From a virus, in the IMG/VR virus record IMGVR_UViG_3300035034_002218, positions 1-21,317 of that record: a stretch of DNA of 21,317 nt; one strand, written 5' to 3'. The position numbers and the translations under genes are program-made. Below, piece after piece: positions 1-17,209 of this stretch; position 1 is the stretch's first letter; every line of letters begins with the position of its first letter. The notes beneath the pieces are model-generated. The model saw nothing but the letters and a program-made list of their open reading frames with translations, was not told the origin of the DNA and ran no database searches.

Positions 1-1997
1 CAAAAAACGTCATCAAAACGTTCTACTATACCAGTATCTTTCCAGCCAAGAACCTTCTTGTAATAACTGTGTGCAGAGGTTGGTTGACTTAACTGATCTC
101 CGTGCATAAGTAGAGTGCCGTAATCTCCAATATAGTCCACTGCGTAAAAGTTACTTTCACCTGGACCTTCTGGGATATTGAAGGTAATTCTCGGCTCATC
201 AGCAAAAAGCATGGTCACAAACTTGTATAGCAATCTATCCATATTTGTTTCAGGATTATAGTTGGAACGATTACGAGATGATATCAAACCATGATTGCCA
301 ATAACACCCGCAAAGTGCACCGTCTCAAACATAGAAAGCATACGCCGAATAAAATCTGACAATATCTCCACACCAGAAATTATCTGTTGATAGAGACTTG
401 CATCAATCTCGAAAGTCTGACCGGGGAAAATGTCCTCACCTTCGACCATATCACCTAGGGCATAAATATGAGCTTTGCGAACAGGATGATCACTGCGCTG
501 CATTTCGGTTATCTTATTAACCTCATCAGCAAAAAGTTCTACCCTATCCGCACAGACGTCTGAGTTATACGAAATCGTTTTCTTACCACAGTTGTGTACT
601 TTTACTCCCTGAGCAATAAACCAGTGCTTATCTGGATATTCGACATCATACACGTCACGTTCTCCCAGGGACTCAATCTTCCGAATCCTAGACCAGGACA
701 ATACTTCACCATCATCACCTTCAAGCGCATCAGTACGGACCGGATTCGTAGCTGTGCCGATTCCTGAATTATACTCTAGAGCACGAAGACTAGCCTCTTC
801 TTTTCCGTAAATGAGTCCGAACTCATCGAAGAAACGATTAATCACATCACGGGAGTTGGCTATACAAAGCCGAAAAAAGGTTGATTTCGAAAGCTTATGC
901 CACTCCCTCTGAATCCGAGATGGAATACCAAATTTAAGAAGAAGAGCCTGCATATAGTGCGCATGAACTTCGCTGGTACCAACAGCTAACTCAATAGACA
1001 CTTGCTTGCGTTCACCTCGTGTCGTAATGCACCCATCCCCTGCAAACGAACGATTGACAAATCTAGCAGCAGCTTCCCTAGAAAAGGAGAATACCATAGT
1101 CGGAAACTTGTCTTCCCATTCAAGTGAACGCAAGAACTCCAAACATTCGTTTTTGCTCCCCGGAGAAGTCAAGAGCAGATCAAACCCACGCCCCTTACTG
1201 TACCTCTTTGGGGTTATGCGGAAAAGTTTACCAGTCACCTGCTCCATTTCCTGGTGATATTGCTCATTATTGTTCGTAAATTTTGCTGACTGCCCCTTAG
1301 TGAACGAACCATCAGTTGACATGTACCCCAAAAAGGTGGCAGTATTTAAATCTCCTTCAAAACTATCTCCCCACATATCCCATTCGCTCAAAGTTGCGAT
1401 ATCGTCACCGACCTGGAGTTCCTCTGCGTGCTTCCAGCCATCGCGAGTGAATATTGGATGATCCCCACTAGCGACAACCTCGTATCCGCCAAAGGTAACG
1501 TAACGGGAAACGTATTTCTTTCCTGCCAGCCAAGCATCTTCATGGTTCTGGATCCGAACAGCAGAACCATCTCGACGGAACACAACTGTGTCCCCATCTA
1601 GACATTGCCAGTCGGCTAGCACCGGATTTGCTACCTCCTCCTCTCCTACTTTTGAACGAAGTTTCGGTGGACTAACGGGCTTAATATCTATAGAGCTCAT
1701 AGCATCGTGGGCGGCTTGATATACGGCGCTTATTTGTTCCATCGAGTTATGCTTATGCTTCATGTACAAGTTCTGTAATCTACGATTTTCTTTACGGAGA
1801 AAATCTAATTGCTCTTCAACCTCTTCCTCGGATTCTATCCCATATGAAGGAGCTAAAGCAGCCGCTACATCTTTAGCCAAATCACGTCTACGGCGAATAT
1901 TCTCTGCATCACGCTTACACTGTTGATCGCAATAGGCTTGATTGTGAACTGATGGTTCAAATTGATTACCACATTCTGGCGCTGCACATGTACGCAT
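1..1997 (-). CDS. Zinc-finger metallophosphoesterase interrupted by an intein (3' end cut by window edge)
   Basis: Reading the minus strand from ATG at 1997 gives an open frame of 665 codons to the window edge, so the C-terminus is missing. An AGGAGA ribosome site lies 4 nt before the ATG, and the upstream baseplate gene stops 11 bp away. Residues 1-27 carry a Cys4 knuckle (C4, C9, C23, C27), and residues about 54-100 are charged and helical, perhaps a coiled coil. The phosphoesterase core follows: VLADWQ (D129), then CGKK after the intein, ALGDMVEG (D516), GVIGNHG (N568, H569) and LLMHGD (H632). These match the D-x-H/Q, GD, GNH and H metal-ligand motifs of calcineurin-like phosphoesterases; the final GHxH would lie outside the window. 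Residues 132-469 are an intein. The family is known for phosphodiesterase or nuclease activity on nucleic acids. A role in phage DNA metabolism is inferred and the substrate is unknown. Confidence 0.85.
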   Translation of the reverse strand, partial: MRTCAAPECGNQFEPSVHNQAYCDQQCKRDAENIRRRRDLAKDVAAALAPSYGIESEEEVEEQLDFLRKENRRLQNLYMKHKHNSMEQISAVYQAAHDAMSSIDIKPVSPPKLRSKVGEEEVANPVLADWQCLDGDTVVFRRDGSAVRIQNHEDAWLAGKKYVSRYVTFGGYEVVASGDHPIFTRDGWKHAEELQVGDDIATLSEWDMWGDSFEGDLNTATFLGYMSTDGSFTKGQSAKFTNNNEQYHQEMEQVTGKLFRITPKRYSKGRGFDLLLTSPGSKNECLEFLRSLEWEDKFPTMVFSFSREAAARFVNRSFAGDGCITTRGERKQVSIELAVGTSEVHAHYMQALLLKFGIPSRIQREWHKLSKSTFFRLCIANSRDVINRFFDEFGLIYGKEEASLRALEYNSGIGTATNPVRTDALEGDDGEVLSWSRIRKIESLGERDVYDVEYPDKHWFIAQGVKVHNCGKKTISYNSDVCADRVELFADEVNKITEMQRSDHPVRKAHIYALGDMVEGEDIFPGQTFEIDASLYQQIISGVEILSDFIRRMLSMFETVHFAGVIGNHGLISSRNRSNYNPETNMDRLLYKFVTMLFADEPRITFNIPEGPGESNFYAVDYIGDYGTLLMHGDQLSQPTSAHSYYKKVLGWKDTGIVERFDDVF
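591..1604 (-). mobile_element. Intein in metallophosphoesterase (338 aa, LAGLIDADG, Cys...HN|Cys)
   Basis: This in-frame insertion encodes 338 residues within the phosphoesterase. It starts with Cys1 in block A (CLDGDTVVFRRDG) and ends VKVHN followed by Cys+1 of the C-extein. Block B is ASGDHPIF with His49; Ser replaces the usual Thr. The homing-endonuclease insert has two LAGLIDADG helices: FLGYMSTDG with acid D98, and FVNRSFAGDG with acid D190. Block F is RDVYDVEYPDKHWFIAQG. The set of splicing residues (Cys1, block B His, HN, Cys+1) is complete, so it should splice. Removing it joins VLADWQ to CGKK, restoring the first metal-binding motif of the host enzyme. The boundaries rest on the terminal motifs and on the restored host motif. 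Confidence 0.93.
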
Positions 1998-2008: not shown

Positions 2009-3166
2009 TCAGGTTATCGAGGACGTAGCAATCTTAACTTGTATATCTCCAGGGATTATCTGCTGGTCCGTTTCTGGTGAATAATTACGACGCAATATCT
2101 CAATCCCATCCGCTCGCAATGTCTCGATATTAACGTCCTTGATCACATCTGAAGAATCTAGTATAGATTGAATCAATTGATTGAACACGAATTGCTTTCC
2201 TGGTAGTAGACGATTGAGGTACCTAATTATACCAATCTCTCCTCTTCGTGTCACCCCCGTATTGTCATTAATTACAGTACCTAATACTATACTAGCATAC
2301 ACATCCATTGGTGTATAGTCAGGTTCACGAACATAAAGCTTCACTCCAGCAGGCCTGATCTTAATCATTGCCTTAATGGAGTCGCCGACCACCCTCTCAG
2401 CAATAGCTCTCTCCTCGGGAACAACCAGTGCTTCAACTGAACCCAATCCATAGGGTGTATTTCTGATTGAGACTTCCCTGACTCCTGGAACTGCAAGGCC
2501 ACTGAAACGTAATGCTTCTGTTGTGCCTCCTGCAGACCTACGCACCTCTTTTATAATACGACTACGGTAATTATCGTCCGTCTCGTATCCTATTTGAGGA
2601 GCTATGGTCTTAGGGTTGGTGCATTTGAGTAAAGGTTGTCCATCAACTGGGGGGACATTGTGCTGAGTTATAGTATCAGCACCAGCTGTATAAACGGAGT
2701 CCGAAAACTCGGGGGCAATGCCAACAAAAACCCGAAGACGACCAGCGCGTATCGTGACATCCGCAATAGTGCTGTATGTATATTGTGCACCAATGAAATT
2801 ATTTGCATCAGTGAAAACTGTAGTTCCTTGTGGAATTGATATATCCTGATCGTGAGATGTGTCAATATAAAAATAGAATGAACCTATCTGTTGCTCCAAC
2901 GTAGCTGACTGGCCCAACTGCTTACGCTCAATACTATAAAGCTTCCCCATCAAATCAAGTGCCCGACCTTGCGCAGAAGATATCAAGCTCATCGAGGTGT
3001 TGTAGTCCATAATGGTGTAAAAATCACCAAGCTCATTGACAATAGTCTCCGCCAATGCACGAGCAACCGAACCGGGCCCAATGGAGGAAATAGGAGTTTT
3101 CCTCTGCAGTTTCTGCAAAGAAAGTCGCAGTAACTCAGACTTTTCTTTGGTTTCAAAAATAGCCAT
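2009..3166 (-). CDS. Baseplate J-like protein (baseplate wedge)
   Basis: The product is 385 residues and fits the Baseplate_J family (phage P2 gpJ, Mu gp47, and T4 gp6 distantly). These proteins form the wedge dimers around the hub of contractile tails. The N-terminal helical part has the usual G-x-VARALAE and A-x-G-x-x-LDLMGKLYSIER pattern (about residues 31-82). It is followed by an IPQGTTVFT beta module near 112-120, the ETDDNYRSRI motif near 215, and VPGVREVSI. The ATG at 3166 is preceded by AAGGAG and lies 11 bp after the gp25-like gene. Length is typical for the family and no break is seen. Its position directly after gp25 is the usual myovirus order, which supports the call. Confidence 0.93.
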   Translation of the reverse strand: MAIFETKEKSELLRLSLQKLQRKTPISSIGPGSVARALAETIVNELGDFYTIMDYNTSMSLISSAQGRALDLMGKLYSIERKQLGQSATLEQQIGSFYFYIDTSHDQDISIPQGTTVFTDANNFIGAQYTYSTIADVTIRAGRLRVFVGIAPEFSDSVYTAGADTITQHNVPPVDGQPLLKCTNPKTIAPQIGYETDDNYRSRIIKEVRRSAGGTTEALRFSGLAVPGVREVSIRNTPYGLGSVEALVVPEERAIAERVVGDSIKAMIKIRPAGVKLYVREPDYTPMDVYASIVLGTVINDNTGVTRRGEIGIIRYLNRLLPGKQFVFNQLIQSILDSSDVIKDVNIETLRADGIEILRRNYSPETDQQIIPGDIQVKIATSSIT

Positions 3167-3177
3167 TAAACTTCTCC

Positions 3178-3558
3178 TTAGTTAAGTCCGAGGTCTTGCT
3201 CAACCGACAACCTGATTGCTTCTCTGCTACCTGATGTAATATCCACATCAAACCTTATTGCCTGAGGACCCACGGGTACTGCGCGTACATCGAATGGTTT
3301 ACCGGCGAATCTTCCTTCACGCTTAAGCGCTAACTTAATCAACTGTTCTCCGTATTCACCGGTATCGGGAGATTGTGGCAACCCATAAAGGGATGACAAA
3401 GAAGCACCGAGTTCTGGATACAACAAATAATCACCTTCATCAGTCATAACTCTTATGTAGGCCTGCTGAACGTCATCTCGCCATGGCGTGTCTGAAAGAG
3501 CAATATCACCACTAGGGGATACTGTGATGTCTCCCTCTTCTGTAAAATATAAATCCAT
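3178..3558 (-). CDS. gp25/gpW-like baseplate wedge protein
   Basis: The product is 126 residues, a normal length for the T4 gp25 / P2 gpW family of baseplate wedge proteins. In other phages these help start sheath assembly next to the hub. The central part (TDEGDYLLYPELGASLSSL, about residues 39-57) matches the family pattern of a conserved Gly-x-x-x-x-x-P followed by a small-residue helix, and beta strands then run to the C-terminus. The start at 3558 has an AGGTGA site about 9 nt upstream and a 15 bp gap from the preceding gene. It sits immediately before baseplate J, as in many myovirus and tailocin clusters. The first 27 residues (GDITVSPSGDIALSD) look like a family-typical leader. The call rests on pattern and context, since sequence identity in this family is low. 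Confidence 0.85.
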   Translation of the reverse strand: MDLYFTEEGDITVSPSGDIALSDTPWRDDVQQAYIRVMTDEGDYLLYPELGASLSSLYGLPQSPDTGEYGEQLIKLALKREGRFAGKPFDVRAVPVGPQAIRFDVDITSGSREAIRLSVEQDLGLN

Positions 3559-4463: not shown

Positions 4464-4997
4464 TTATTCTGCAAAATAACCTGGGGGCGGATGCTCGAAG
4501 AAGTCACTAGGCATAACATCTTCTTCCTTCTCGTCCTCAGACTGATCTTTCATCAACTGCGTATAATCTTCTAGTGTCATCTTGTTACCTTGTTCATCAC
4601 GGACCCAGGCAACTTTATTTCCATCCTCCATATCTCTCAGGAATACTTCAATGCCTTCATAGGGGCTGTAAACATCCTGTTCTGTATCGTCCCTGGCGAT
4701 AAATGTGGGCTCATTAAAAGTTGTGGCTCTGTCGTTGAAAAGAATCTTATTCCAACGCAATCCGCCTTCTCCTCGTGTCATAAAATTAATGTGATCTGCA
4801 ACAAAAGTAATAGTACCATTGCTTGGATGCATCAAGATAGCCAATCCCTCTCCAGCAACTATCTCAATATCACCATTGTCACGTATACGTATAAACCCTG
4901 GCACATCAGGATGAGTTAATCCGACTTCTCTACCACTGTATTTATCCTGTCTATCAATTATATCAATAGGGGTGTCAAACGTTGGGGTATCTGGCAT
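4464..4997 (-). CDS. Putative baseplate or spike protein
   Basis: The product is 177 residues. I do not recognise a named family. Residues about 35-80 form a run of short alternating beta strands (FIRIRDNGDIEIVAGEG, then ILMHPSNGTITFVADHINF), resembling the repeats of phage spike or gp5-C-like beta structures. The C-terminal 50 residues are very acidic (SEDEKEEDV) and end in a proline-rich tail (PPPGYF). ATG at 4997 directly follows the stop of the OB-fold gene, and GGAG lies 6 nt upstream, so the two genes are translationally linked. Its place directly after the OB-fold spike gene suggests that it extends or caps that spike. This is inferred from context. Confidence 0.6.
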   Translation of the reverse strand: MPDTPTFDTPIDIIDRQDKYSGREVGLTHPDVPGFIRIRDNGDIEIVAGEGLAILMHPSNGTITFVADHINFMTRGEGGLRWNKILFNDRATTFNEPTFIARDDTEQDVYSPYEGIEVFLRDMEDGNKVAWVRDEQGNKMTLEDYTQLMKDQSEDEKEEDVMPSDFFEHPPPGYFAE

Positions 4998-5363
4998 TTA
5001 CATCTCCAGCATAAATCGAGGGGTTTGATTTTTGGCGTAGTACTGAGCATCGTATTCGTTTTCTTCATACGAATGGTGAAAGTAATGCGTTATCATAGGT
5101 GAAGATTGAAGTCCATCCCTAAACGAAACCCAACATGGCCTTCCAATTCCAGGTGCAACTGATTGCACACCAAAAGTGGTTGGACAGGGGACATTTGCGT
5201 AGAACTCTCCCGGTATATCAGATCCGGGCTGAGCTAAAAGTACAGTCGCTGTATTGTCGGTGGAACTATACTCCATAATAATGCCGTAACCAGGTTGCGA
5301 ACCCCGAAGATTAGCAGTAGCAATTTCTTGCTGAACCTTATTATCTAGTTTGTAATTTCTCAT
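4998..5363 (-). CDS. OB-fold baseplate spike/hub protein (gp5-N / gpV-like)
   Basis: The product is 121 residues from ATG at 5363. Residues about 25-95 have an OB-fold pattern: a GYGIIMEYSSTDNTATVLL strand pair, then a long loop, then GIGRPCWVSFRDGLQSSP. This is like the N-terminal OB domain of T4 gp5 and baseplate V proteins, where 'G..V.V.f..gd...P.v' is typical. Such proteins bind the hub and carry the membrane-piercing spike. The ATG shares its A with the TGA of the giant hub gene (TGATG), and GGAG lies 6 nt before it, so translation is probably coupled. An in-frame GTG at 5375 would add four residues but has no ribosome site, so I prefer ATG 5363. The spike-like 4464-4997 product follows and may be its partner. 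Confidence 0.72.
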   Translation of the reverse strand: MRNYKLDNKVQQEIATANLRGSQPGYGIIMEYSSTDNTATVLLAQPGSDIPGEFYANVPCPTTFGVQSVAPGIGRPCWVSFRDGLQSSPMITHYFHHSYEENEYDAQYYAKNQTPRFMLEM

Positions 5364-8300
5364 CACTGACTCCACGGTGTGTCAATATTTGACTGCTGTC
5401 TACCAGAAACTCCGCGACCAGCCTGATCACGCTTCATATCATTAGTAAAGACTTTTCCGTGTCCAGATGCAATCATCTCCCAATCAAATGTGTAAGGCTG
5501 ACCATCGGGCATGTACGAATCATAGCTAACAGGGGGAATGCGAGTTGCCGCACTCAGGAGAAAGTCTTTTCTGTCATCCCCTATAATACCTTCAGGTGCA
5601 CGATGGAAAATGTAACCTAATGTACGATCAAACTTATCTATTCGATTAGATTGATCTATCCTTACTGCTACTTTAGTACTGATACCATCGGGCATCAATA
5701 GGCTTCTAGCGAACTCCGTGGCTCTTACGCCTGGATCATTTGCATAGATAGTAGATCTTTCTTCTGTTGTTCTGCTTTTGTACTCGTCTTCAGGTGCATC
5801 AACACCTGCAGGACGCAATTTTCCATTACCCAATACTGCGTTACTCGAAGAATATTCTCCATATCGCTGCTGACCAATGACATCGAAATAAAATGTGTCA
5901 CCGTCTGTAACACGAGTGATGCGAATCCAATAAGCTTCTACATCAAAACCGCCAGGCAGTGTTTCTCTACCAGCAATACGCCTAACTTCTGCATTAGTTC
6001 TATCAACAAAGAGACTCACTGCCTGCGCCTGTGCACTTGGCCCAGTTTCATCCCACCGCAATGCAGGCAAAACATCCTGCGTCCTAATAGTCGGATTGCC
6101 ATCGCTACCCAATAGGGGTACCTCTCCAAGCTTAAGCCCCTTGATAACAAGACTACGAGTGTGCTGATGACCAACTGCGACACTTGAGTTGTAAGAAAGC
6201 CCAGCATCCATTGGGCGACCATTGTGTGTTAAGTATTGAATCCATGCACCTTGCTGGTCTAGTAGGTTGTCACGCACCCATTTCCAGCCCTTCCATCCAA
6301 AAAAGCCCCCTAAAGCCATACCGGCCGGACCCAGAGTCGCGCCAACAATAGCACCAGCTCCAGCTAGCCCTGCTAGAGACTTTATAACCGCAGTATTACC
6401 CCCGGTATATTGGAGGCTATTTTCTATCTGCACCGAAGCCTGATTGACAACATCATCTAGACTATATTGAGTCATACTAGGCATTTCAGAACCGATACTT
6501 TGCACATCTTGGTCGTCAGCAAAGACTTTAAATTGTTGGCGCATATGTTCTCGTAATGCTGCTATATCGGCATTTTTCTTGCTTCGAGCTATCATCATAA
6601 ATCGAGCAGGATCATTAATAGAAACACAAGCATTTGGAGTGACACTTGTTACAAAACCAGTTTCTGGTGTTAAATGATGGATAACTTGCTGGACCTCAAA
6701 AAAGCCATACATTCTTGAGTTGTGAGTAAACAATCCATCTGCAAGGTAAGTTTTATCATCCTCCACATCCATGGAATACACCGGACCGGAGTAGGGTTCA
6801 TGAGAGACACTTATTGTCTCCCAATTGCCAAATTCATCCCGCATGACCATACCATCAACAAGGTTGACTGCATATACCTCGGATATTTTAGCTACCGAAG
6901 ACATCTGTCCTTTAAATCGCACAACACAACGGTGACCAGGTGTGTACCTAGACGACTTACCTGATTCAGTTGACGCCCTAACAAGCTCGCCATCGTAATG
7001 GTTAACTGAAATGCCAGTAATTTCTTTTCCGCGTTTATGGATATGGCTTTTGGCTATGTCCATAGAAAGAACTTTCTGACCCTCTTGCAGTAATTCAATG
7101 GGGACATCTTCTGTGGTCGATTCGCCCCAACGGTTTCCGCCTTGGTGAACAACTTTCACCATAGTCCCTGGAGGTTGACAATAGACATCACCCATATACA
7201 CCAGATCGTGAGGACGTATAGAAGAGTTACCGAGTATTGTCAATTCACCTTGATAGATATTTTGTAGATTATCTTTCAGATGTTTTAGAGCAACTCTCTT
7301 GGCAGTTGTCTCCATGTTGGTGCCATCTCCGGATTTGCCACTAGTTTGATTAATCCATCTTTTTGTCTCAATAGGGCTAAAGACTTTCTTAAGCCCAAGC
7401 CACCCCTTCGGATGATCGTAAAATAGACCAGTATCAACTATCTTTTCAACCTGCTTCTCAGAAGGTGCAGCCTTATCAAAATGAACTGTAACAGGATTCT
7501 GACCATTAGATATAGCAGTGATCACACTGGCTACATCATCAATAGTCTCGATAATTGAATTATTAAGAATATGCTGAAACGAACCTAGAGTATGCAACCT
7601 CTGGAATGGTTCTCGAACTTCCACAACAGGCTCTGAATACTCACGTGTAAAACAATTTCCTGTAAGAAGGTTGCCCACCAGTGAGAAGTTGTGCCACTTC
7701 GGAACTACAGCGCAATATACTTCTGCGAACTCTTCAGTTTCCTCAACCGAAACAACAGACCAGCGTCTCATCTTGCTCTTCTTGTCTTTTACGACGAATC
7801 TCCTGCGATGTTGATCTATTAGAAAAAACTCCTCAGATAGAGTCTCTCCAGGCAGGGTTATCGAGTAGAACGGCTCGCTCTCTCTCCGGGATTCTCGAAC
7901 TTCATACGCCAGGATGCCCAACCTTAGGCATACAAGCCTGAAGAACTCGACCCGCTCACGTTTGCTTTGTCCAAACGTAACCGTCCCATTCTCAGAGACG
8001 CACCCATCTGCCGCAAAATAACCAACAAGAAAACCGTACAGATGACTCTTCGACTCGTCCAAACTCGGTAGTTCTTTCCAGCTTCTAGGCAGATTGCGTA
8101 TCTTCACTCCGGGAAAACCCTGCTTGGAATAAACTTGTAGCCTCTCGCAGAGAGAGAAATAAGGCATGAGTACAGCATCCTTCTCTCCCCACAGTGTGAC
8201 ATCTGTTTTGTCTCCGTCGATCCAACCATCCCCCATCACGAAACCTTGTGCTATACCAAACTGAGAAGGCTTCGGAAGTTCAGACCTTCCCCTCTCGTTC

Positions 8301-11300
8301 TTCGCAACTGTAAGCCTATTTCCCGGAAGGAGGTCCTTCGTAACCCTCTCCTTACGATAATCTTTGCCATTCCCTCCTAAATCAACGAACCATCGATGAT
8401 CTGCCGTCGCCTTTATTTCCTTCTGAACTCCGGCACGAGATATAGTCAGCTTGAACAATTTCTGTACACCAAACGACTTGACTTCTGATTCTACCCAACC
8501 GTTCGAAGAAAGTAATCTGGGTGTAGTCCCTGTTAGTTCTTTAATCGTACGTGTGCCGTCCCAAGTCTCAACTTCCGTATCGCCCGCTAAACAATTATCT
8601 GCATAATACAGCATTGGATTTACTACGCGGCCCTCTTCGTCTCTTCCCGCAGAGTAGTATATAGAATCATTAAAGATTCGATTCAAAGCATTTGTTTGTC
8701 TCTGCATATTAGAGGCCATAGACATTCCGCTGGTTAGTTGCATCATTTGCAATCTGATGAACTGTATTAGTCCAGTAGCAATACCCCCAACCGCCGACAA
8801 AGCCCTCTTACCGAAGTCCATAACGCTTTCCCAGGTCTTCAATAAGCCGGCAGCAGTCTCCTCAAATATGCGAGCGATTATATTCGACTGATCACGACCA
8901 TCACCATGATTATTCTTCATATATTCAATGGCGGCCTGATCTCCATAGCTGATGTACAGTGAGAAACATTCATACAGAGAACCAAACTCCCATATCCGTC
9001 CAGCCTGATCTGCCTGACTTGGTTCATCATCTCCACCAAAGCCTAATATGTTGGATGCTATGTCAACAACAAAACCACGGACTCTGTCAATATTCCTTAG
9101 AACAAAACCGCCAGCTCGTTTGTTTGTTATCTTAACAACCCATGCCCTTGAATAAGGGTTCTCATACATGAAATTAATGAAATTTTCAACAACTTGATCA
9201 AAAACCTGTCTTTTAATCTCCTGACGCTCAGATTCACTAAGGTCTTCCATTTGTTTAGCACGCAGAAATGTACGTTCTGTTTCGGAGTCAGTAGCAAAGA
9301 AAGTTTTGACCTCTTCCCAAATCTGCTCTGCCTCGTCTTCATCTCGATTATGACCATATATTCTTTCTGCGATCTGATCATCACCATCAGTTGAAACAGC
9401 TATTCCGTCATCATTGTAACCTTCGTCATACTCACGCATATTGCTGCCACTTGCATCAAAAGCTTCTGCCTGAGCTGTGTATCTGTCTGCTGATGCTTGA
9501 TCACTCTGACTCAGGGTGCTACTACTAGCAGATGCCAATTCTTGATTAACAGCAGCTCGGGCTGCGGCCATATGGCGTGTGTGTGTATTATTCGGAGTGT
9601 GAAAATTACGAGATATAGAGTCTGGATGAACAGCCCAATCACTCCATTTACCTTCACTCTGTGCAAGTGGCTGCTGTGTAATCATCTTCGCAGCACGAGC
9701 ATTAAGGAACGGATCATGTAAATCGTTTCGCTGGGTAGCGCCCATTATGTCGCCCCAGATCGAATACATTATCTGCCAAAGCCCCGTAGCAGTCGTTGTA
9801 CTGTTGTTGAGGGCAGGATTCCAATTACTCTCTGCACCAGCAATTGCAACTGCAACTACTGCATCTTCTCCCGTAAAACCTGCTGCCAATGCAGCTCTGG
9901 CAGCGAGATTAACTCCGCTGGCATTACCATCCCAAGTCAGATCTGAAGTGGACGTATATGGATCATTACTAGGCTGCCAGTCGTCGATTCCACTGAAGTA
10001 TTCCTCAAAAGACTCTAAGTTATCCCGCTTTGCAAGTGTTGTCTCTATCCGTTCCCATATACGCAGAAGCTCTTCGTCTGGAGCCTGTATCTTAGGCGCT
10101 TCTGCTTCTGGTAAACCCGTAGTCAGAGGAATTAGTCCAGAAGTATAAAGCCAATGAGGTTTACCATAAAATATCGTAGACCTATCTTCAAAGGGGCGAA
10201 CTGCAACGATATAGTCCGGCAGAAGGGCAGCACAAATCTGAAAAAGATCCCAAACTGTCTTCATGTATGTCTGAGCTCTAAATGCTACCTCATCAAACGG
10301 GCCATCTTCATCTTCTTGTCTCGTCATCACGCCCATCTGGCGTAACATGTTATGGGTTCTACCACCCCCTATAGCACTCGATGTATTAGCATAAGGCAAT
10401 TCTTGGCTACGATAACGCTGACCTGCGCTTCCTGAAATAGTCATTCTCCCCGCTACAGCCCCTGTACCGAACGTTAATCCAACCATAGTTGCGCTTAATG
10501 TTCGAGAAATACTCATTGCTATATCTGTTTCTGGATCGGGCGCCTGCTGTAATTGAACAGCCGCGTCAAGTGCAGCTTGACCACCCCCGGGAATATTAAA
10601 TTGCACAGACGGATCATTTACTCCGTTACCTGGACGCATTGATGCCGTATTGTCGATAGCTGTTGATAATCCATACTCACCTAGATCACCACCAACGAAC
10701 TGAGCTACTCCTGTCCCATTCCCTGGATAGATATTACGTTTGAATACTTCATAATCACGCTTTGCAGCTAAATTCGTCCAAGCTGCGTTCATAACATCGA
10801 ACATAGCCATACTCGTCATGCCAAGCACTTCACCAGTAGAATCTGGGTCTTCACTTACTCTCGCAATTATTGAGGAGAGACGATTTTTATTTCTACCAAC
10901 CTTGTCTCGCTCTTCGCCGTCAAGAGGTTCGTAAAACATCGAACCAAAGTGTCTGATTCCGTATCTGTTTTCAGAAAATATCTCTCCCTGAGTAGCATGC
11001 GCAATTGTTTGACGAACTGTAGTGCTTCCTTGAGTCAAAAGGGTTATCATTAAATCACGTGGTTCCGACATATAAAGACCAACCATCGAATTATGGACAA
11101 GCACGCTCCAAGCGTGATAATTGTGGGTTTCCGTAGAAACATCAAACCCCTTACGTCCACTGGGGAAACTTCTACGATTATCTCCCTCAATAACCCCAAC
11201 TCGGTCTACGCCTAAGACCTCCAAATCCCGAGAAATCCAAACCTTCTCAGCCTTAGGGTATGGGACAAACTCCACATCTCTATACTCATGGGGCAACTTA

Positions 11301-14300
11301 TATCGCATAGACGGCTCAATGTGAGGGGCTATAGCAGACCAAAAAGCATGAATGCCAATTCTGTCACCAGCCTTAACCCTAATATTCGGACCCTTAGAAT
11401 CAAATACGCAGGCTTCCACCTTGTACCTGTCCCACAAAATCTTTACTAGCCGCTCACAATCATCCCAAGTGAAAGCATTAGTTGCAAAAGTTGCAGTGTC
11501 TATAAACACCCTTTTTACACGAGACCCATCATCCATATACCACTTCGCTACAGCAAAGTCGTCAACCCAAGACAAATCTTCGGGGAGTGACTTCACACCC
11601 TCAAAGTACCATTCGTTTCTAATCGCAGCCAAGCACTCAGAAGTCTTCGAGTCAACATCAACACCTTGAGATCCATACCCGGTAATGATGTCATTCTTTG
11701 ATAAGAATATATCCCCCAAACACTCAGCTACGTAGTCTGCATATGTCTCCTGCTTCTTGGAGTGCCTTTCTCGGAACTTGCCACCTGACCCGTTGAATAC
11801 GACACAACCATCCCCCAAAAGGGCAGACTTAATAAAATGCCTACTCGCATCATTAATTTCGTATGAAGCCCTACTTACGAAATCTCCAGGCTTAGCATCC
11901 CCAGCAGGACGATACTTTCCATTGATGGGGATTTCATGGTTTGAAGTAACACGCATAACTACTGGATTGTGGCTCCCCCCTATACCCTTCCAGTTAAAGT
12001 TATATGTTATGTCCAGCCAGTTATCCTTGGTGCCATTATCAAACCAATCCGTAACCCGAGAAGGGACTAACTCTCCACTGTCGTTTCTCCCGATTAATGT
12101 AGGAGTGAGCTTATTCTTTACTACCTTTCCAATAGTAACAGTCCCACCACCCCACAAATTCAATGGCGCATTGGCAGAGAAGCAACCGTCAATCTTTCCA
12201 GTGTGGCCCTCCTTGTTAGTAGAATTAACCATTGCACTAAGCTCAATAGCATCTGATTGAGCAACAATAGTCATTACCTCACCAGTTTGCACCTCCGTGA
12301 CTACACCGTTGAATACTGTATCAAGTAGATTGGGATTGCTGTTACCTGTGTAATATACAGTCCCTCTTCTTTTTGCTAGCCAGGTTTCGTTGGGTGTTGT
12401 AGGGCACCAGACTACCCCGGTATATTTCTCCTCTCTTGGTTTGATATCAGTAAACCACATCTCTGTTTTGTCGCTAAAGCTCAAAATATAAATCGGCTTG
12501 TTGGTTTTTGGGTCCCAGGAAACTGTTCTGTTGGTCTTCTTCCCAAGAAGTATACAGGCTAATTCAATTGCGTCTAGACGAGCTTCAAAGCTTTGTTTAA
12601 TTGCATCACCAGATCTCCTAACAACATTATTGCCATCTGCCATCATAGAGACCTTGATAAAAAGCTCTAGCTGAGATATGGTCAAACTATGGATAAAGTC
12701 AAAAGAAATCACCTTGTTTTTTTCATCATCCAGAAGATCAAGAAACGGTTTAGAAGCCGATACATTAAGCCTATACTGGTTCTCACTTCTTGTTTTCCGC
12801 TCCCTAATAGCCCAAGCAGCATCACGCTTCACTCTTCCTCCGATAAGTTTATCAGAAGGATCTCCCAGCAAAGTTCTGAGCGCTCTTTCGATCCTTATAC
12901 AGTTCTCAGGATTTTTATCTCGACATTGTGAAACGTAAACGGAATTGTTAGTTTTACCAGACACACACCCCTCTGTCCACAGCCAGGCCATAAACTCAAC
13001 AAACTCATCTGAATACTCAGCAACAGTTGGAATTTCTGCTAACGGAGCTGCAAGCAAAACTTTATGATTGGTTTGGAGATGCTCAGAATCGGTCCAGTTA
13101 CGCTTCCAACCTTTACTCATAGAACCATGAAGTACTGGCCATCTGTGATTCTTGGTAGTAAGAGACGAATGAAACCTGCCTTCAATTCGAATAAGATTAT
13201 CATTCTCTACTGGATAAATATTAACATTCGACACCGACTGCCACTCAGACAGACCTGTTTTATGGTTAAGTGTCAAAACAGGGTCTCCAACCTTCAATTC
13301 GTCATATGAAACCCATCCATTTTTGGTCAAGATCTGAGTCTGGTCATCTGCGCAACCATAACCCATCCTCAAATGCAACCGAACTCCCGGTTGCAACTGA
13401 ATGGTATCTAGATCAACCATCCATCCAGCGTTACTAAGATTTCTATGTAGACCCTTCGTGAATTGGTTGATGATACGTGCACCAGGATTATCCTCATCGA
13501 GGTAGTCAAACATCTTTGTTGACAATTTAGAGTAGAGATTAGATACCCTCAGTACAAGAGTGTCACCTACTATCTCCTGCGATTGGACCAGCGACATATC
13601 TACCACAGACTGCAAACCATAGAAATTGTCGAACATCTTCATACCAGCGACTGTGCTCTCATCAATAAGCCACAACATATAAGTTGGATACGCACGTATC
13701 ATTCGACCGCTATTATCCCTATAAAGCATGTCTTGTGACATGGCATCAAATTGAAACCAAGGATCTCCACTATTGTCTAAATAAGGCTGCATGTATCCCG
13801 AGGGCGGGGTGAAGTCAGAGAAATCTCCCTCAGATTCACTATTAGCTGGCTCAGTCAACATATTGCCTGCATGCGGCTCATTAATGCGCGCGTTGACCAC
13901 AGCAGCTTGTTGCCCAGAGAACAAACTGAAACCGTTATCATCAATACTGCAATATTCAGGTGTGCCGTTTTCCCCCATACCCATGCAATAATGAATACCA
14001 GGACCTTCTAAGAAGTCGTATGAAGGATCTGTCTTTCGCTGCGCATCAGCAACCTGTTCTTGATTCATGTCCTCTACAGCACTACGTATCAGATCGCTGC
14101 TGCTACCCTCTTCGATATTTGCAAGTTTCTGACTTTCTTCCGATAAGAAGATATCGTCATCAAGTGTTTTGAATGATCGAAAGTAGAAATCAGGATCCAG
14201 ATGACCAACAATCTTGCCTTCATCATCCCGCACAGAAAGCGGGAAGTCTGGATATGCACTAAAGCTGCCCCACAGTTGCTTGATCCTAAAGAATGGGTTT

Positions 14301-17209
14301 CTCTTGCTGAAAGCATCCACTAATTCAGCTTGTTGTTCAGCTCCGAGGGTTTCTCTCTTCTGCTGGAAGATATCAAAATCGGTCAGAGATATCTGCACCT
14401 TGTAGACATGAGGATTATTAGGAACAGTATCCACCTGAAATGATAATGGCACAACATAACGTATGCCCACCAGCTCTGTCATGATGTTTTGTACACCAAG
14501 GAATCCAAGTACCCCATGACCATGTTCAAGACGAGCTAATCCACTTATGTGATCAAACATTGTCCGTAGCTTTACGAGCTCCGTTTCGGCATGCTCTCCT
14601 GAGATGGTCATAAATATATCTATCTGAGAATCTGCCCCACCAATATGTTGGTGAGTTGGTTCATCCTGCATCTGCAATTGTAGTCGAGCAATCACATTTC
14701 CTAATGTAACTGTAACTCCCTCCACCTTAACGGTGCTAGGATCAAGATTACGCTTAACCATCGGTACTTCCCACTCATTGATGGTTAGTTGTTTCTTGTA
14801 CCTATCCTGGTTTGCAAGCGCTCTAGACAAAGATGGGTCTAACATGAAGAGTTGATACATCGCATAGAACCAGACAGCATCGACCTGCCTTCGCAATTCC
14901 GAAGCAGCGGCTGTTCCCCTCTCTATACCCTCTTCTTCAAGTCGTATGTCGAAATATCTATTTAATTCAGCACGGTTCATCATTTCAAAAGCGAGTTTTA
15001 TTGTGCGGAGATAATCTCGTAATGTCTTAAACTCATTCTGATTGGCGATAAATCCCATACCTGTTTCTTCTGCCATGTTTCGAGCAGCAACATATTCTTG
15101 CTCATTTGTGTTAATATCAAAACCCATAACACCGAGAAGACGCTCCCACCAATTCTTCTTCTGCTGGTTCCAAATGATATCGTCATAACGCATATCGGAA
15201 AGATCCGGAAGGTCCACACGGGCAGGAGTAGATAATGGATAATAGAAATCAAACCTATTTGCCGCAAATGCTCCATGCCTGCGATATGTCTGTGTAGATG
15301 GAATATCTTCCACAGTAATATCATTCAATATTTCTTCTGCACTACGTATAGTTGGTCTTATCTCGCCAACATCTACAGGAGAATCACTCATAGAATTCAT
15401 CGCCATATTAAACTCTTTAATGGGTCTGGATGACTGAGCTAATCTACCCGCCGCTCTACCCATGTAAGAGTTACCGCACCACATAGGTTTCCCATTACGC
15501 CTGACATACAATGTACCATTGGGTACTGAGACGCAATATACAATACCACTATAATCAATAGTATCCGGAATGGGAACTGCGACATTCTCGGTCTTTCTTA
15601 TGCAGACCTTAAACATTCGACGTTGACCATGAATGGTGACAACACTATATTCCGATATCGAAGATGAAAAACCTAGCTTCTGAACTATTTCTTGAAGATC
15701 ATCGGCCATATGTCGACTGGATGTGGAAACAGATTCCACACCTTTATCAGAACTTTCATCTCCAAGGTGGTAATACCTCCAGAATATCTCCAGTTGAGTA
15801 TTAGATGATGATTTAATATTCTCTGGAACATACTTCTCGTAGCTTTTACCAAACTGGCTCAAGTACCCAGCAAATGAGTCACGAGAGATTTCCCACTTCT
15901 CCCCGTCATAATATGGCTCTTTCCCAAATATACGCACAAGAAGGTCACGGAAAGGAACATATCCCTTCGTGTGCTTGCGCTGTGAAATTAATATCTTATT
16001 ACCCTTTACGCACCCTTCCGAAAGATACATGCCCATAAAGGCAACATAATCGTCACCACTAAAACTTACACCTTTACTCCACAAAGTGGCACCAGCAAAC
16101 CATTGTGCGCCAATCCTTACTCCATCCCATGTCGAGGTCATGGGAAGTTTTTTATGCCCCAGGTTCCAGGTTCCAAGCTCTTCAGCTGTTACAAAAACCT
16201 CCTCATCACGCCTACCCTCTTTAAGCACCACCATTCTGTGATTGGGGGTAACAAGAGCATCTACAGAACGCCCTCTAAAATGATACATGGGCCCATCATA
16301 TGCATCTTCTGTTTTATGGGTTGCTTGCTGCCATTGAAATTGTTTGGTCTCTGAATTCCTAGTGGCAAACTCATCTTCTAATGTTACTTCTTTAAAAAGC
16401 TTCCATCCATCACGAGTTAAAACTTCAGTGTCATCAGAATAGCAACGAAATCTGCCCCAGTGAATAGCCTGATCAAAGTGCTCAATCATTGGCAAATAAA
16501 CCTTATGATTGAACTTGTACATAGTTAATGTAACTGCCATAGAGAATGGATATTCAGGAATAGTTGATATTGACATATCCTTAAGAACCACACCGGTGAT
16601 ACCGAAAGCTCTATTTAAATAATCATTTCGTACTGGCAAAAAGGGTGCATACTTGAATTGAGCGATAAGCCCCCGCAACGAGGAGAGGAACTTATCAATT
16701 GCCTGATCATCACTTTCGGGTGCCGGAGTTTGGGACTGATTTGGCACCTCACCTGGAGAACGCATTCCCCCGTCTCTGGGGCCATCGAAATTGATGCGAA
16801 ATATCTCATCTTCAAAACCAAAAATCTCTTCATATGACGCAAAATAAAGCGTCATCGAGATAACTGTTTCTGTATGACCCGTATTAAACTTAGGGGCACT
16901 TTGCTGCCGAATAGCAGCGCCAGTTATATTGCCACTCTTAAATACCGAAGAAACACTTATATTGATTGGTGGAATATAGAATTTGCTTCCACCAATTCTA
17001 CACTCCCATGGCTCAATAGCTTCCGGTGGGATATCCTTGCGCTCTTCCCCCAGAGCTTGATATATACGATCATGAGTAGTATTGAAATCGAACGCCGATT
17101 CAAAACCTTCACCGAAAGCAGCAAAGGTTTCTGCTTGTATCCTCCGAGTTACTTCTTCCTCGTCTAAGGTACTAGTATCGTTGTCCGCACTTGTAACATG
17201 ATCACTCAT
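5363..17209 (-). CDS. Giant tail-hub polyprotein with five inteins, transglycosylase and nuclease-like domains
   Basis: One uninterrupted frame of 3948 residues starts at ATG 17209, with GGAG 5 nt upstream. Inteins occupy residues 256-580, 1286-1623, 1676-2040, 2873-3185 and 3344-3497. Splicing would give a 2453-residue protein made of exteins 1-255, 581-1285, 1624-1675, 2041-2872, 3186-3343 and 3498-3948. Two related beta-rich modules (about 67-240 and 824-951) lead to a hub-like core whose junction reads RMGYG|SNPNLLDTVFNGV. This resembles the 'GY...vF.G.V' signature of gpD/gp27-type hubs. A lytic transglycosylase domain lies at about 2431-2560. A second hub-like stretch (DLVYMGDVY|SRMYGF, then VIHHLTPETGFVTS) lies near 3330-3530. 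A Gly/Ala hydrophobic segment lies near 3605-3645, and a staphylococcal-nuclease-like domain at about 3764-3890. Neighbouring spike and wedge genes fit a tail-tip hub. The hub call is inferred from pattern; the open frame and inteins are directly visible. Confidence 0.85.
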   Translation of the reverse strand: MSDHVTSADNDTSTLDEEEVTRRIQAETFAAFGEGFESAFDFNTTHDRIYQALGEERKDIPPEAIEPWECRIGGSKFYIPPINISVSSVFKSGNITGAAIRQQSAPKFNTGHTETVISMTLYFASYEEIFGFEDEIFRINFDGPRDGGMRSPGEVPNQSQTPAPESDDQAIDKFLSSLRGLIAQFKYAPFLPVRNDYLNRAFGITGVVLKDMSISTIPEYPFSMAVTLTMYKFNHKVYLPMIEHFDQAIHWGRFRCYSDDTEVLTRDGWKLFKEVTLEDEFATRNSETKQFQWQQATHKTEDAYDGPMYHFRGRSVDALVTPNHRMVVLKEGRRDEEVFVTAEELGTWNLGHKKLPMTSTWDGVRIGAQWFAGATLWSKGVSFSGDDYVAFMGMYLSEGCVKGNKILISQRKHTKGYVPFRDLLVRIFGKEPYYDGEKWEISRDSFAGYLSQFGKSYEKYVPENIKSSSNTQLEIFWRYYHLGDESSDKGVESVSTSSRHMADDLQEIVQKLGFSSSISEYSVVTIHGQRRMFKVCIRKTENVAVPIPDTIDYSGIVYCVSVPNGTLYVRRNGKPMWCGNSYMGRAAGRLAQSSRPIKEFNMAMNSMSDSPVDVGEIRPTIRSAEEILNDITVEDIPSTQTYRRHGAFAANRFDFYYPLSTPARVDLPDLSDMRYDDIIWNQQKKNWWERLLGVMGFDINTNEQEYVAARNMAEETGMGFIANQNEFKTLRDYLRTIKLAFEMMNRAELNRYFDIRLEEEGIERGTAAASELRRQVDAVWFYAMYQLFMLDPSLSRALANQDRYKKQLTINEWEVPMVKRNLDPSTVKVEGVTVTLGNVIARLQLQMQDEPTHQHIGGADSQIDIFMTISGEHAETELVKLRTMFDHISGLARLEHGHGVLGFLGVQNIMTELVGIRYVVPLSFQVDTVPNNPHVYKVQISLTDFDIFQQKRETLGAEQQAELVDAFSKRNPFFRIKQLWGSFSAYPDFPLSVRDDEGKIVGHLDPDFYFRSFKTLDDDIFLSEESQKLANIEEGSSSDLIRSAVEDMNQEQVADAQRKTDPSYDFLEGPGIHYCMGMGENGTPEYCSIDDNGFSLFSGQQAAVVNARINEPHAGNMLTEPANSESEGDFSDFTPPSGYMQPYLDNSGDPWFQFDAMSQDMLYRDNSGRMIRAYPTYMLWLIDESTVAGMKMFDNFYGLQSVVDMSLVQSQEIVGDTLVLRVSNLYSKLSTKMFDYLDEDNPGARIINQFTKGLHRNLSNAGWMVDLDTIQLQPGVRLHLRMGYGCADDQTQILTKNGWVSYDELKVGDPVLTLNHKTGLSEWQSVSNVNIYPVENDNLIRIEGRFHSSLTTKNHRWPVLHGSMSKGWKRNWTDSEHLQTNHKVLLAAPLAEIPTVAEYSDEFVEFMAWLWTEGCVSGKTNNSVYVSQCRDKNPENCIRIERALRTLLGDPSDKLIGGRVKRDAAWAIRERKTRSENQYRLNVSASKPFLDLLDDEKNKVISFDFIHSLTISQLELFIKVSMMADGNNVVRRSGDAIKQSFEARLDAIELACILLGKKTNRTVSWDPKTNKPIYILSFSDKTEMWFTDIKPREEKYTGVVWCPTTPNETWLAKRRGTVYYTGNSNPNLLDTVFNGVVTEVQTGEVMTIVAQSDAIELSAMVNSTNKEGHTGKIDGCFSANAPLNLWGGGTVTIGKVVKNKLTPTLIGRNDSGELVPSRVTDWFDNGTKDNWLDITYNFNWKGIGGSHNPVVMRVTSNHEIPINGKYRPAGDAKPGDFVSRASYEINDASRHFIKSALLGDGCVVFNGSGGKFRERHSKKQETYADYVAECLGDIFLSKNDIITGYGSQGVDVDSKTSECLAAIRNEWYFEGVKSLPEDLSWVDDFAVAKWYMDDGSRVKRVFIDTATFATNAFTWDDCERLVKILWDRYKVEACVFDSKGPNIRVKAGDRIGIHAFWSAIAPHIEPSMRYKLPHEYRDVEFVPYPKAEKVWISRDLEVLGVDRVGVIEGDNRRSFPSGRKGFDVSTETHNYHAWSVLVHNSMVGLYMSEPRDLMITLLTQGSTTVRQTIAHATQGEIFSENRYGIRHFGSMFYEPLDGEERDKVGRNKNRLSSIIARVSEDPDSTGEVLGMTSMAMFDVMNAAWTNLAAKRDYEVFKRNIYPGNGTGVAQFVGGDLGEYGLSTAIDNTASMRPGNGVNDPSVQFNIPGGGQAALDAAVQLQQAPDPETDIAMSISRTLSATMVGLTFGTGAVAGRMTISGSAGQRYRSQELPYANTSSAIGGGRTHNMLRQMGVMTRQEDEDGPFDEVAFRAQTYMKTVWDLFQICAALLPDYIVAVRPFEDRSTIFYGKPHWLYTSGLIPLTTGLPEAEAPKIQAPDEELLRIWERIETTLAKRDNLESFEEYFSGIDDWQPSNDPYTSTSDLTWDGNASGVNLAARAALAAGFTGEDAVVAVAIAGAESNWNPALNNSTTTATGLWQIMYSIWGDIMGATQRNDLHDPFLNARAAKMITQQPLAQSEGKWSDWAVHPDSISRNFHTPNNTHTRHMAAARAAVNQELASASSSTLSQSDQASADRYTAQAEAFDASGSNMREYDEGYNDDGIAVSTDGDDQIAERIYGHNRDEDEAEQIWEEVKTFFATDSETERTFLRAKQMEDLSESERQEIKRQVFDQVVENFINFMYENPYSRAWVVKITNKRAGGFVLRNIDRVRGFVVDIASNILGFGGDDEPSQADQAGRIWEFGSLYECFSLYISYGDQAAIEYMKNNHGDGRDQSNIIARIFEETAAGLLKTWESVMDFGKRALSAVGGIATGLIQFIRLQMMQLTSGMSMASNMQRQTNALNRIFNDSIYYSAGRDEEGRVVNPMLYYADNCLAGDTEVETWDGTRTIKELTGTTPRLLSSNGWVESEVKSFGVQKLFKLTISRAGVQKEIKATADHRWFVDLGGNGKDYRKERVTKDLLPGNRLTVAKNERGRSELPKPSQFGIAQGFVMGDGWIDGDKTDVTLWGEKDAVLMPYFSLCERLQVYSKQGFPGVKIRNLPRSWKELPSLDESKSHLYGFLVGYFAADGCVSENGTVTFGQSKRERVEFFRLVCLRLGILAYEVRESRRESEPFYSITLPGETLSEEFFLIDQHRRRFVVKDKKSKMRRWSVVSVEETEEFAEVYCAVVPKWHNFSLVGNLLTGNCFTREYSEPVVEVREPFQRLHTLGSFQHILNNSIIETIDDVASVITAISNGQNPVTVHFDKAAPSEKQVEKIVDTGLFYDHPKGWLGLKKVFSPIETKRWINQTSGKSGDGTNMETTAKRVALKHLKDNLQNIYQGELTILGNSSIRPHDLVYMGDVYCQPPGTMVKVVHQGGNRWGESTTEDVPIELLQEGQKVLSMDIAKSHIHKRGKEITGISVNHYDGELVRASTESGKSSRYTPGHRCVVRFKGQMSSVAKISEVYAVNLVDGMVMRDEFGNWETISVSHEPYSGPVYSMDVEDDKTYLADGLFTHNSRMYGFFEVQQVIHHLTPETGFVTSVTPNACVSINDPARFMMIARSKKNADIAALREHMRQQFKVFADDQDVQSIGSEMPSMTQYSLDDVVNQASVQIENSLQYTGGNTAVIKSLAGLAGAGAIVGATLGPAGMALGGFFGWKGWKWVRDNLLDQQGAWIQYLTHNGRPMDAGLSYNSSVAVGHQHTRSLVIKGLKLGEVPLLGSDGNPTIRTQDVLPALRWDETGPSAQAQAVSLFVDRTNAEVRRIAGRETLPGGFDVEAYWIRITRVTDGDTFYFDVIGQQRYGEYSSSNAVLGNGKLRPAGVDAPEDEYKSRTTEERSTIYANDPGVRATEFARSLLMPDGISTKVAVRIDQSNRIDKFDRTLGYIFHRAPEGIIGDDRKDFLLSAATRIPPVSYDSYMPDGQPYTFDWEMIASGHGKVFTNDMKRDQAGRGVSGRQQSNIDTPWSQ
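5370..5373 (-). promoter_or_regulatory. Ribosome binding site deciding the OB-fold gene start
   Basis: GGAG lies 6 nt before ATG 5363, inside the last codons of the hub gene. It supports the ATG that overlaps the hub stop (TGATG) over the upstream in-frame GTG at 5375, which has no such site. Confidence 0.65.
5540..5920 (-). other. Staphylococcal-nuclease-like domain at the hub C-terminus
   Basis: Hub residues about 3764-3890, in the last extein. It reads RVTDGDTFYF (D3769, D3771), then LRPAGVDAPE with R3799 and E3807 at the exact R35/E43 spacing of micrococcal nuclease, then DKFDRTLGYIF with R3862 at the R87 position. With Ca2+-binding Asp candidates and all three catalytic residues present, this is a plausible active SNase/thermonuclease (TNase) fold, which cuts DNA and RNA. 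A nuclease at the end of a tail hub is unexpected. It could act on host nucleic acid at the cell surface or could be retained for binding. Confidence 0.88.
6719..7180 (-). mobile_element. Hub mini-intein 5 (154 aa, no endonuclease, Cys...HN|Ser)
   Basis: Residues 3344-3497 of the hub polyprotein. At 154 residues it is close to the minimum for a splicing domain and has no LAGLIDADG motif. Block A is atypical (CQPPGTMVKVV). Block B is SRYTPGHRCVV with His83. Block F is YSGPVYSMDVEDDKTYLADG, and the end is LFTHN|SRMY with the canonical His-Asn pair and Ser+1. Removal restores LVYMGDVY-SRMYGFFEVQQ. It may be an intein that lost its endonuclease, and it would depend on splicing alone for survival. 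Confidence 0.9.
7655..8593 (-). mobile_element. Hub intein 4 (313 aa, LAGLIDADG, Cys...GN|Cys)
   Basis: Residues 2873-3185 of the hub polyprotein. Block A is the textbook CLAGDTEVETWDG. Block B is IKATADHRWFV with His66. Endonuclease helices are IAQGFVMGDG (acid D122) and YGFLVGYFAADG (acid D196). Block F is VYCAVVPKWHNFSLVGN, and the end is LLTGN|CFTR with Gly as the penultimate residue and Cys+1. It is the only hub intein with Cys rather than Ser at +1. Removal joins LYYADN to CFTREYSEPV. Confidence 0.94.
9530..9919 (-). other. Lytic transglycosylase (SLT-like) domain within the hub
   Basis: Hub residues about 2431-2560, in the fourth extein. AIAGAESNWNPAL provides the catalytic Glu (E2460), and TATGLWQIM is the classic GLWQI substrate-cleft motif about 16 residues later. 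This fold cuts the glycan strand of peptidoglycan. The arrangement AxAAGFTGxDAVVAVAIAGAESxWNP is common in tail proteins of phages of Gram-positive bacteria, actinobacteria especially. Inside a hub it would make a local hole in the cell wall during DNA entry. Confidence 0.88.
11090..12184 (-). mobile_element. Hub intein 3 (365 aa, LAGLIDADG, Cys...HN|Ser)
   Basis: Residues 1676-2040 of the hub polyprotein. Block A is unusual (CFSANAPLNLWGGGTVTIGK) and lacks the common D-T pair. Block B is MRVTSNHEIPI with His83. The endonuclease has IKSALLGDGCV (acid D125) and AKWYMDDGS (acid D219), the 'MDDG' type of LAGLIDADG enzyme. The C-terminus is THNYHAWSVLVHN|S, with a canonical His-Asn pair and Ser+1. 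It lies only 52 extein residues after intein 2 and is of a different lineage from it. Removal joins GKIDG to SMVGLYMSEP. Confidence 0.92.
12341..13354 (-). mobile_element. Hub intein 2 (338 aa, LAGLIDADG, Cys...GN|Ser)
   Basis: Residues 1286-1623 of the hub polyprotein. Block A is CADDQTQILTKNGW with Cys1. Block B is SLTTKNHRW with His70. Endonuclease helices are FMAWLWTEG (acid E128) and FIKVSMMADG (acid D240). Block F is YTGVVWCPTTPNETWL, and the end is VYYTGN|SNPN with Gly as the penultimate residue and Ser+1. Removal restores HLRMGYG-SNPNLLDTVF, which reads as one continuous structural motif. This is good evidence for the exact boundaries. Confidence 0.94.
15470..16444 (-). mobile_element. 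Hub intein 1 (325 aa, LAGLIDADG, Cys...GN|Ser)
   Basis: Residues 256-580 of the hub polyprotein. Block A is CYSDDTEVLTRDGWK with Cys1. Block B is LVTPNHRMVV with intein His69. Endonuclease helices are FMGMYLSEG (acid E143) and FWRYYHLGDE (acid D229, with Glu where Gly is usual). Block F is YSGIVYCVSVPNGTLYV, and the end is MWCGN|SYMG with Ser+1. The penultimate residue is Gly, not the usual His. It closely resembles intein 2 in block A, in the (S/T)EGCV after the first helix, in QLE(I/L)F, and in the C-terminus. Removal joins WGRFR to SYMGRAAG. Confidence 0.93.

Follow-up and report, generated by a model that had tools for sequence, protein, structure and literature searches.

The routes by which inteins spread to new sites are still debated, and the locus considered here allows a source site and a target site to be compared side by side. 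It lies in IMG/VR record IMGVR_UViG_3300035034_002218, whose positions 1 to 21,317 were analysed as one stretch (hereafter the window), a single metagenomic contig of 21.3 kb in which no N is present. A preliminary description made from the sequence alone had noted five inteins within one phage tail-hub gene of this contig. How did five inteins come to occupy a single gene? The evidence assembled here makes it very likely that five inteins, each from a lineage of its own, independently entered a giant tail-hub gene of myovirus type, that they would be spliced out of the protein, that the codon following the intein (the +1 codon) was mostly imported and that one intein, Int3, arrived by ectopic homing. 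The pattern of +1 substitutions and the origin of Int3 in an RNA ligase site are features that go beyond the preliminary description.

The hub open reading frame (ORF) starts with ATG and runs uninterrupted over 3948 codons. Recomputed borders delimit five inserts of 325, 338, 365, 313 and 154 amino acids (aa), leaving a spliced length of 2453 aa; frame and lengths match the earlier numbers exactly, and so does the share of intein residues (1495/3948, 38%). A sixth intein, Int6, in a neighbouring gene is an addition to the five already described and brings the total to six in 21.3 kb. The features are as follows.

5363..17209, minus strand: tail/baseplate hub gene with five inteins (PHROG 20474 colinear with the exteins; SLT lytic domain in extein 4)
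16445..17209, minus strand: extein 1 (border recomputation)
15470..16444, minus strand: Int1, 325 aa, aa 256-580 (Cys1 ... CGN, then Ser+1; LAGLIDADG)
13355..15469, minus strand: extein 2 (border recomputation)
12341..13354, minus strand: Int2, 338 aa, aa 1286-1623 (Cys1 ... TGN, then Ser+1; LAGLIDADG-type motifs)
12185..12340, minus strand: extein 3 (52 aa), which separates Int2 from Int3 within a predicted hub-like beta domain (borders and structure model)
11090..12184, minus strand: Int3, 365 aa, aa 1676-2040 (Cys1 ... VHN, then Ser+1; I-SceI-like LAGLIDADG_2 endonuclease)
8594..11089, minus strand: extein 4, containing the SLT transglycosylase domain
7655..8593, minus strand: Int4, 313 aa, aa 2873-3185 (Cys1 ... 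TGN, then Cys+1; LAGLIDADG)
7181..7654, minus strand: extein 5 (border recomputation)
6719..7180, minus strand: Int5, 154-aa mini-intein, aa 3344-3497 (Cys1 ... THN, then Ser+1)
5366..6718, minus strand: extein 6, with a weak SNase-like region at its end
591..1604, minus strand: Int6, 338 aa, in an adjoining phosphoesterase/exonuclease-like gene (Cys1 ... VHN, then Cys+1)

Are these inserts inteins? Cys1 and a terminal Asn are present in 6/6, block B carries T/S-x-x-H in all six (TPNH, TKNH, TSNH, TADH, TPGH and SGDH), and the +1 residues are Ser, Ser, Ser, Cys and Ser for Int1 to Int5 and Cys for Int6; for the five hub inserts, this check confirms the Cys1, block B His, terminal Asn and +1 Ser or Cys noted before. 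The penultimate residue is His in Int3, Int5 and Int6 and Gly in Int1, Int2 and Int4, which does not exclude the latter three from membership because inteins ending in Gly-Asn are a known variant (PMC1635734). In each of Int1 to Int4 there are two LAGLIDADG-type motifs, both containing an acidic residue, and Int5 has no endonuclease. The LAGLIDADG domain is recognized by Pfam in Int1 (LAGLIDADG_3, 1.7e-5), Int3 (LAGLIDADG_2, 1.1e-24), Int4 (LAGLIDADG_3, 1.3e-12) and Int6 (LAGLIDADG_3, 1.3e-13), and in Int2 by motif only. Support from Hint or intein profiles is direct for Int4 (Intein_splicing, 2.2e-5), Int5 (Intein_splicing, 7.1e-8, with intein_Cterm above cut-off) and Int6 (Intein_splicing, 6.3e-14); Int1 and Int2 give weak Hint_2 matches, and Int1 to Int3 are also supported via full-length relatives. 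A profile built from Int3 together with its relatives finds I-SceI and inteins of solved structure in the PDB, and a PDB search with Int4 alone returned no match. The hidden Markov model search that the preliminary description had proposed for the inserts thus identifies inteins, through Pfam and NCBIfam profiles together with the relatives.

The sites themselves were compared in relatives of the hub, for which a scan with extein 2 returned 80 loci. The comparison that decides the matter is offered by a locus labelled L005, in synteny with the window for every gene that it contains, whose intein-free sibling gene serves as the before-state for the Int3 site. Its hub of 2422 aa and the 2453-aa spliced product form a single high-scoring segment pair (residues 24-2441, 67% identity) in which all five sites are empty. 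At the DNA level the joined flanks align with L005 gapless for sites 1, 3 and 4; for sites 2 and 5 each sequence has a one-base gap, and the two gaps cancel. Altogether, 76-78 loci (L005 included) span each hub site without insert (78 at site 1, 76 at site 2 and 77 at sites 4 and 5), and extra residues near a site occur in them only beyond it or number just one or two. No insert was found at the hub sites, where alignable, in the homologues from two isolated phages, Bacillus phage vB_BauM_KLEB27-3 gp035 and Moorella phage MTATph1 CDS0032 (2326 and 2225 aa), and the Int6 site is empty in L007 and L008. The Intein_splicing profile, which also misses some of the window's own six inteins, matched none of 50 related records, and a search for hub relatives in bacterial and archaeal genomes found none. 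The insertion sites also showed higher conservation than hub positions drawn at random (p = 0.0004), with residues flanking the +1 position mostly near-invariant in relatives.

These empty sites bear on the idea that the segments are permanent hub domains merely resembling Hint or LAGLIDADG proteins, which the preliminary description had itself linked to related hubs keeping them at the same places. Tail hubs are modular and the relatives bear large lineage-specific insertions elsewhere, as this idea would have it; however, L005 and most of the other scanned loci lack the five segments to the exact residue, all five combine Cys1, terminal Asn and +1 Ser or Cys, and each has full-length matches among inteins found in other genes, which leaves the idea hardly any probability. 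The same can be said of an assembly artefact joining unrelated intein genes into the hub: a single metagenomic contig invites the suspicion, but all six insertions keep the frame and lie precisely at splice borders, in a contig with no N and with normal flanking synteny, which makes it barely conceivable.

Where did the inserts come from? For each of them an intein that matches over the full length is found in some unrelated gene of a phage, and for this reason the five hub inteins are read from their sequences as independent acquisitions of different lineages, not structural domains or internal duplications. Over its full length, Int1 is matched in tblastn by thymidylate synthase/methylase genes that contain inteins (best E 2e-26), and it also matches nucleotidyltransferase genes, with further relatives in TerL and portal genes; Int2 matches full-length the intein of Gordonia phage portal genes (E 1e-60), with other matches in TerL, a polymerase and a Bixzunavirus virion protein; Int3 has its matches in RNA ligases; Int4 has relatives in phage ribonucleotide reductase (RNR) and terminase genes; and Int5 matches the intein of a Vibrio phage UvrD-type helicase. 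Viral contigs searched for close relatives of Int2 and Int5 yielded none. Internal duplication of one intein was considered and rejected, only Int1 and Int2 being recognizably related over their full length (21% identity) and each having closer relatives elsewhere. In codon usage the inteins fit the exteins poorly, apart from Int2, which is not clearly outside the extein range, in a test that favours exteins by scoring them against their own usage.

The precursor would be translated as one chain, from which each intein would excise itself by class 1 protein splicing (Cys1 acyl shift, branching at the +1 Ser or Cys, Asn cyclization) to give the 2453-aa hub. Some of the inteins might instead be degenerate, non-splicing or cleaving only, with a hub working as separate pieces. 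Int1, Int2 and Int4 lack the penultimate His, and two or three overlapping hub ORFs in several relatives hint that other phages may tolerate a hub in pieces; against this stand the known inteins ending in Gly-Asn (PMC1635734), the presence of the main catalytic residues, and exteins that flank every site on either side in conserved, colinear form, and we regard degeneracy as very unlikely. The ratio of non-synonymous to synonymous change (pN/pS) against L005 lies between 0.16 and 0.36 in all exteins, with synonymous sites near saturation, a low value that fits a functional hub.

Protein splicing requires Cys, Ser or Thr at +1. By the published account, an insertion site must offer the appropriate C-extein residue to be suitable (PMC1635734). 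What do the empty sites hold? Counted over distinct intein-free relatives, the +1 residue is Q31/H15/Y4/F3 at site 1 (never Cys, Ser or Thr among 53), S35/A17/G1 at site 2, G45/A3/S1 at site 3, P51 at site 4 (51/51) and E46/N4/S1 at site 5; at the Int6 site it is Leu in both relatives that reach it (L007 and L008) and Cys in the window. Thus, at 4/5 hub sites and at the Int6 site, Cys, Ser or Thr at +1 is rare or absent in relatives, and the predicted mature hub is one that carries a substitution at exactly the intein-required residue at four of its five sites. Since the relatives' usual +1 residue at these four sites is not a nucleophile, the +1 codon probably arrived together with the intein. 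The +1 residue is, moreover, the same as at the sites of the inteins' own relatives for Int3 (Ser in 7/7 close ligase-site relatives) and Int4 (Cys in nearly all relatives).

It could be argued that the inteins entered sites that already bore Ser or Cys at +1 in this phage's lineage by prior mutation, so that no nucleophile was imported. Ser is indeed found at +1 in intein-free relatives, in 35/53 at site 2 and once each at sites 3 and 5. On the other hand, sites 1 and 4 never show Cys, Ser or Thr among 53 and 51 distinct relatives, a change from Pro to Cys takes two or more base substitutions, the coincidence would have to happen four times over, at positions that are highly conserved, and the +1 residues of Int3 and Int4 equal those of their relatives' sites; prior mutation is therefore considered unlikely, if less so than degeneracy.

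Import of the +1 codon can be illustrated by Int3. Its seven closest relatives are inserted between K-[M/L]-[D/H]-G and Ser (Kx[DH]G/S), in proteins confirmed as RNA ligases by Pfam or PHROG families wherever scanned. The hub reads KIDG/S at the Int3 site in the window and KIDG/G in most relatives, and K-x-D-G occurs a single time in the 2453-residue hub, exactly at the Int3 insertion point. With a DNA matrix built from the ligase flanks, the Int3 point ranks first of 14,690 positions in the window exteins, and it still ranks first when the +1 codon is left out. Such ranks are not a product of the method by itself, because the same procedure gives no comparable signal at the Int1, Int2, Int4 and Int5 sites (Int1 ranks 130-669, due to the Ser codon alone). 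Int3 supports the import of the +1 codon because the ligase-site Ser is retained where most relatives have Gly, and there is good evidence, drawn from these flanks, that Int3 derives from RNA ligase motif I (KxDG/S) by ectopic homing. The RNA-ligase inteins at this motif (L086-L088, L108, L111 and Mycobacterium phage Bobby gp147) belong to the same lineage, with 29-45% identity where aligned and an I-SceI-like endonuclease; their native site is in the ligase active centre, whereas Int3 occupies a sequence of similar appearance in a structural protein.

An intein at home in the ligase motif would thus have entered the only KxDG of the hub, a fortuitous near-match, keeping the donor Ser, and at 4/5 sites the nucleophile codon would have been converted along with the intein during repair of an endonuclease-triggered break. 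For T4 introns, illegitimate repair at microhomology has been described as a way in which ectopic sites may be reached (PMC2988022). Ectopic movement of inteins has been judged likely to be very rare, and the non-allelic intein relatives examined in the same paper showed no obvious flank similarity (PMC1635734). Endonuclease activity, direction of transfer and repair route are what we infer here. A broader proposition, towards which we lean modestly, is that inteins routinely colonize new genes by ectopic homing carrying their own +1 codon, with no need for a pre-existing Cys, Ser or Thr; the hub would then record five such events, or six with the neighbouring gene, with one identifiable source site (RNA ligase KxDG/S).

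Several points weigh against ectopic homing and splicing as proposed. The ligase-flank matrix applied to L005 places the Int3 site at rank 8-9 of about 14,500, so that the match before insertion was good, not best. The closest relatives of Int3 are 36-45% identical, so that none of them can be named as the actual donor. For Int1, Int2, Int4 and Int5, whose nearest relatives are distant and whose sites have no recoverable likeness to those of relatives, we only infer ectopic homing. Splicing is predicted from the residues present, the extein pN/pS values of 0.16-0.36 may mostly predate the insertions, and the whole record is one metagenomic contig. The side-by-side view of source and target site opens the endonuclease of Int3, both of its target DNAs and the conversion of the +1 codon to direct testing.

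What is the protein that hosts these inteins? The hub gene precedes two wedge genes.

3178..3558, minus strand: gp25-like baseplate wedge gene (phrog_975 baseplate protein)
2009..3166, minus strand: Baseplate_J gene (profile matches)

PHROG 20474 matches the hub exteins colinearly, and of the two homologues in isolated phages, KLEB27-3 gp035 is annotated as putative baseplate protein and MTATph1 CDS0032 as endolysin; all three resemble the hub in being large baseplate/hub proteins upstream of wedge genes. A structure model of the site 2/3 region, of low confidence (predicted local distance difference test, pLDDT, 43.7), has its best Foldseek matches mostly among tail/baseplate hub and gpD-like proteins; a model of the site 4/5 region (pLDDT 38) was discarded. 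Wedge-gene synteny, the homologue annotated as putative baseplate protein and the Foldseek matches of this low-confidence model support the identification of the host as a baseplate or tail hub of myovirus type, in line with the tail-hub gene first proposed. A very large virion protein would thus depend on five splicing reactions. Known gp27-type hubs are trimers; if this hub is one, fifteen would be needed per virion.

How exceptional is such a gene? More than three inteins per gene had been called rare, and five in one gene are rare, without being unique or a maximum: any idea of a record is rejected, since a class II RNR frame of 3046 aa in another phage contig (L205:1140-10277, minus, contig IMGVR_UViG_3300045256_000188) holds six, at aa 233-575, 576-925, 1078-1481, 1617-1998, 2010-2351 and 2460-2868 on the minus strand. 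The first two of these abut with zero extein residues between them, so that the first would have to use the Cys1 of its neighbour as its +1 nucleophile; on the same contig, a terminase-like frame of 1880 aa (L206) has three inteins. The view that tail structural proteins are unusual intein hosts needs qualification, phage structural genes (portal, the Bixzunavirus virion protein) being known or found as hosts.

Among described systems, the RNR of Trichodesmium erythraeum (cited in PMC1635734 and PMC4649490) likewise has several non-allelic inteins in one gene, but it is an enzyme gene and not a virion protein, with four inteins and also group II introns. Archaeal polB and MCM (PMC10643990) share with the hub the presence, within one gene, of several inteins with endonucleases, each at a conserved site of its own; they are, however, replication enzymes with recurrent allelic homes, whereas no sampled relative has an insert at the hub sites. 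Int1 and Int2 match, over their full length, inteins of genes such as those hosting mycobacteriophage inteins (TerL, portal, methylase, thymidylate synthase), of which the TerL inteins tested splice; these differ in being mostly single and in nucleic-acid enzymes, with no tail hub among that paper's host groups (PMC5050341). The intein- and intron-rich zeta crAss-like phages likewise have genomes crowded with splicing elements, with up to three inteins per genome (PMC7886860), against six in the 21 kb of the window and five in the hub gene alone.

Several minor observations were made in passing. Mycobacterium phage Pinkcreek gp135 (L097:1501-2523), annotated as hypothetical protein, is a virion structural protein (phrog_2813) with an Int2-like intein, beside baseplate genes. 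An Int4-like intein in a terminase (L193:2486-3490), inserted directly past GKGGGKDF (P-loop), apparently has Ser and not Cys at position 1, and an RNR intein of Thermobifida phage P318 (L096:1501-2415) ends in Gln, not Asn. The hub is spread over two or three overlapping frames in many relatives (L018, L034, L036, L038, L050, L054, L060 and L074), with breaks e.g. near hub residues 97, 960 or 1055 that may reflect a frameshift, a split gene or the assembly. Upstream of the hub, a 1223-aa gene at window positions 17585-21256 has no Pfam or PHROGs match. In L005 (8668-10868), two small post-hub genes, homologues of window 4464-4997 and 3574-4455, appear to be tandem-duplicated.
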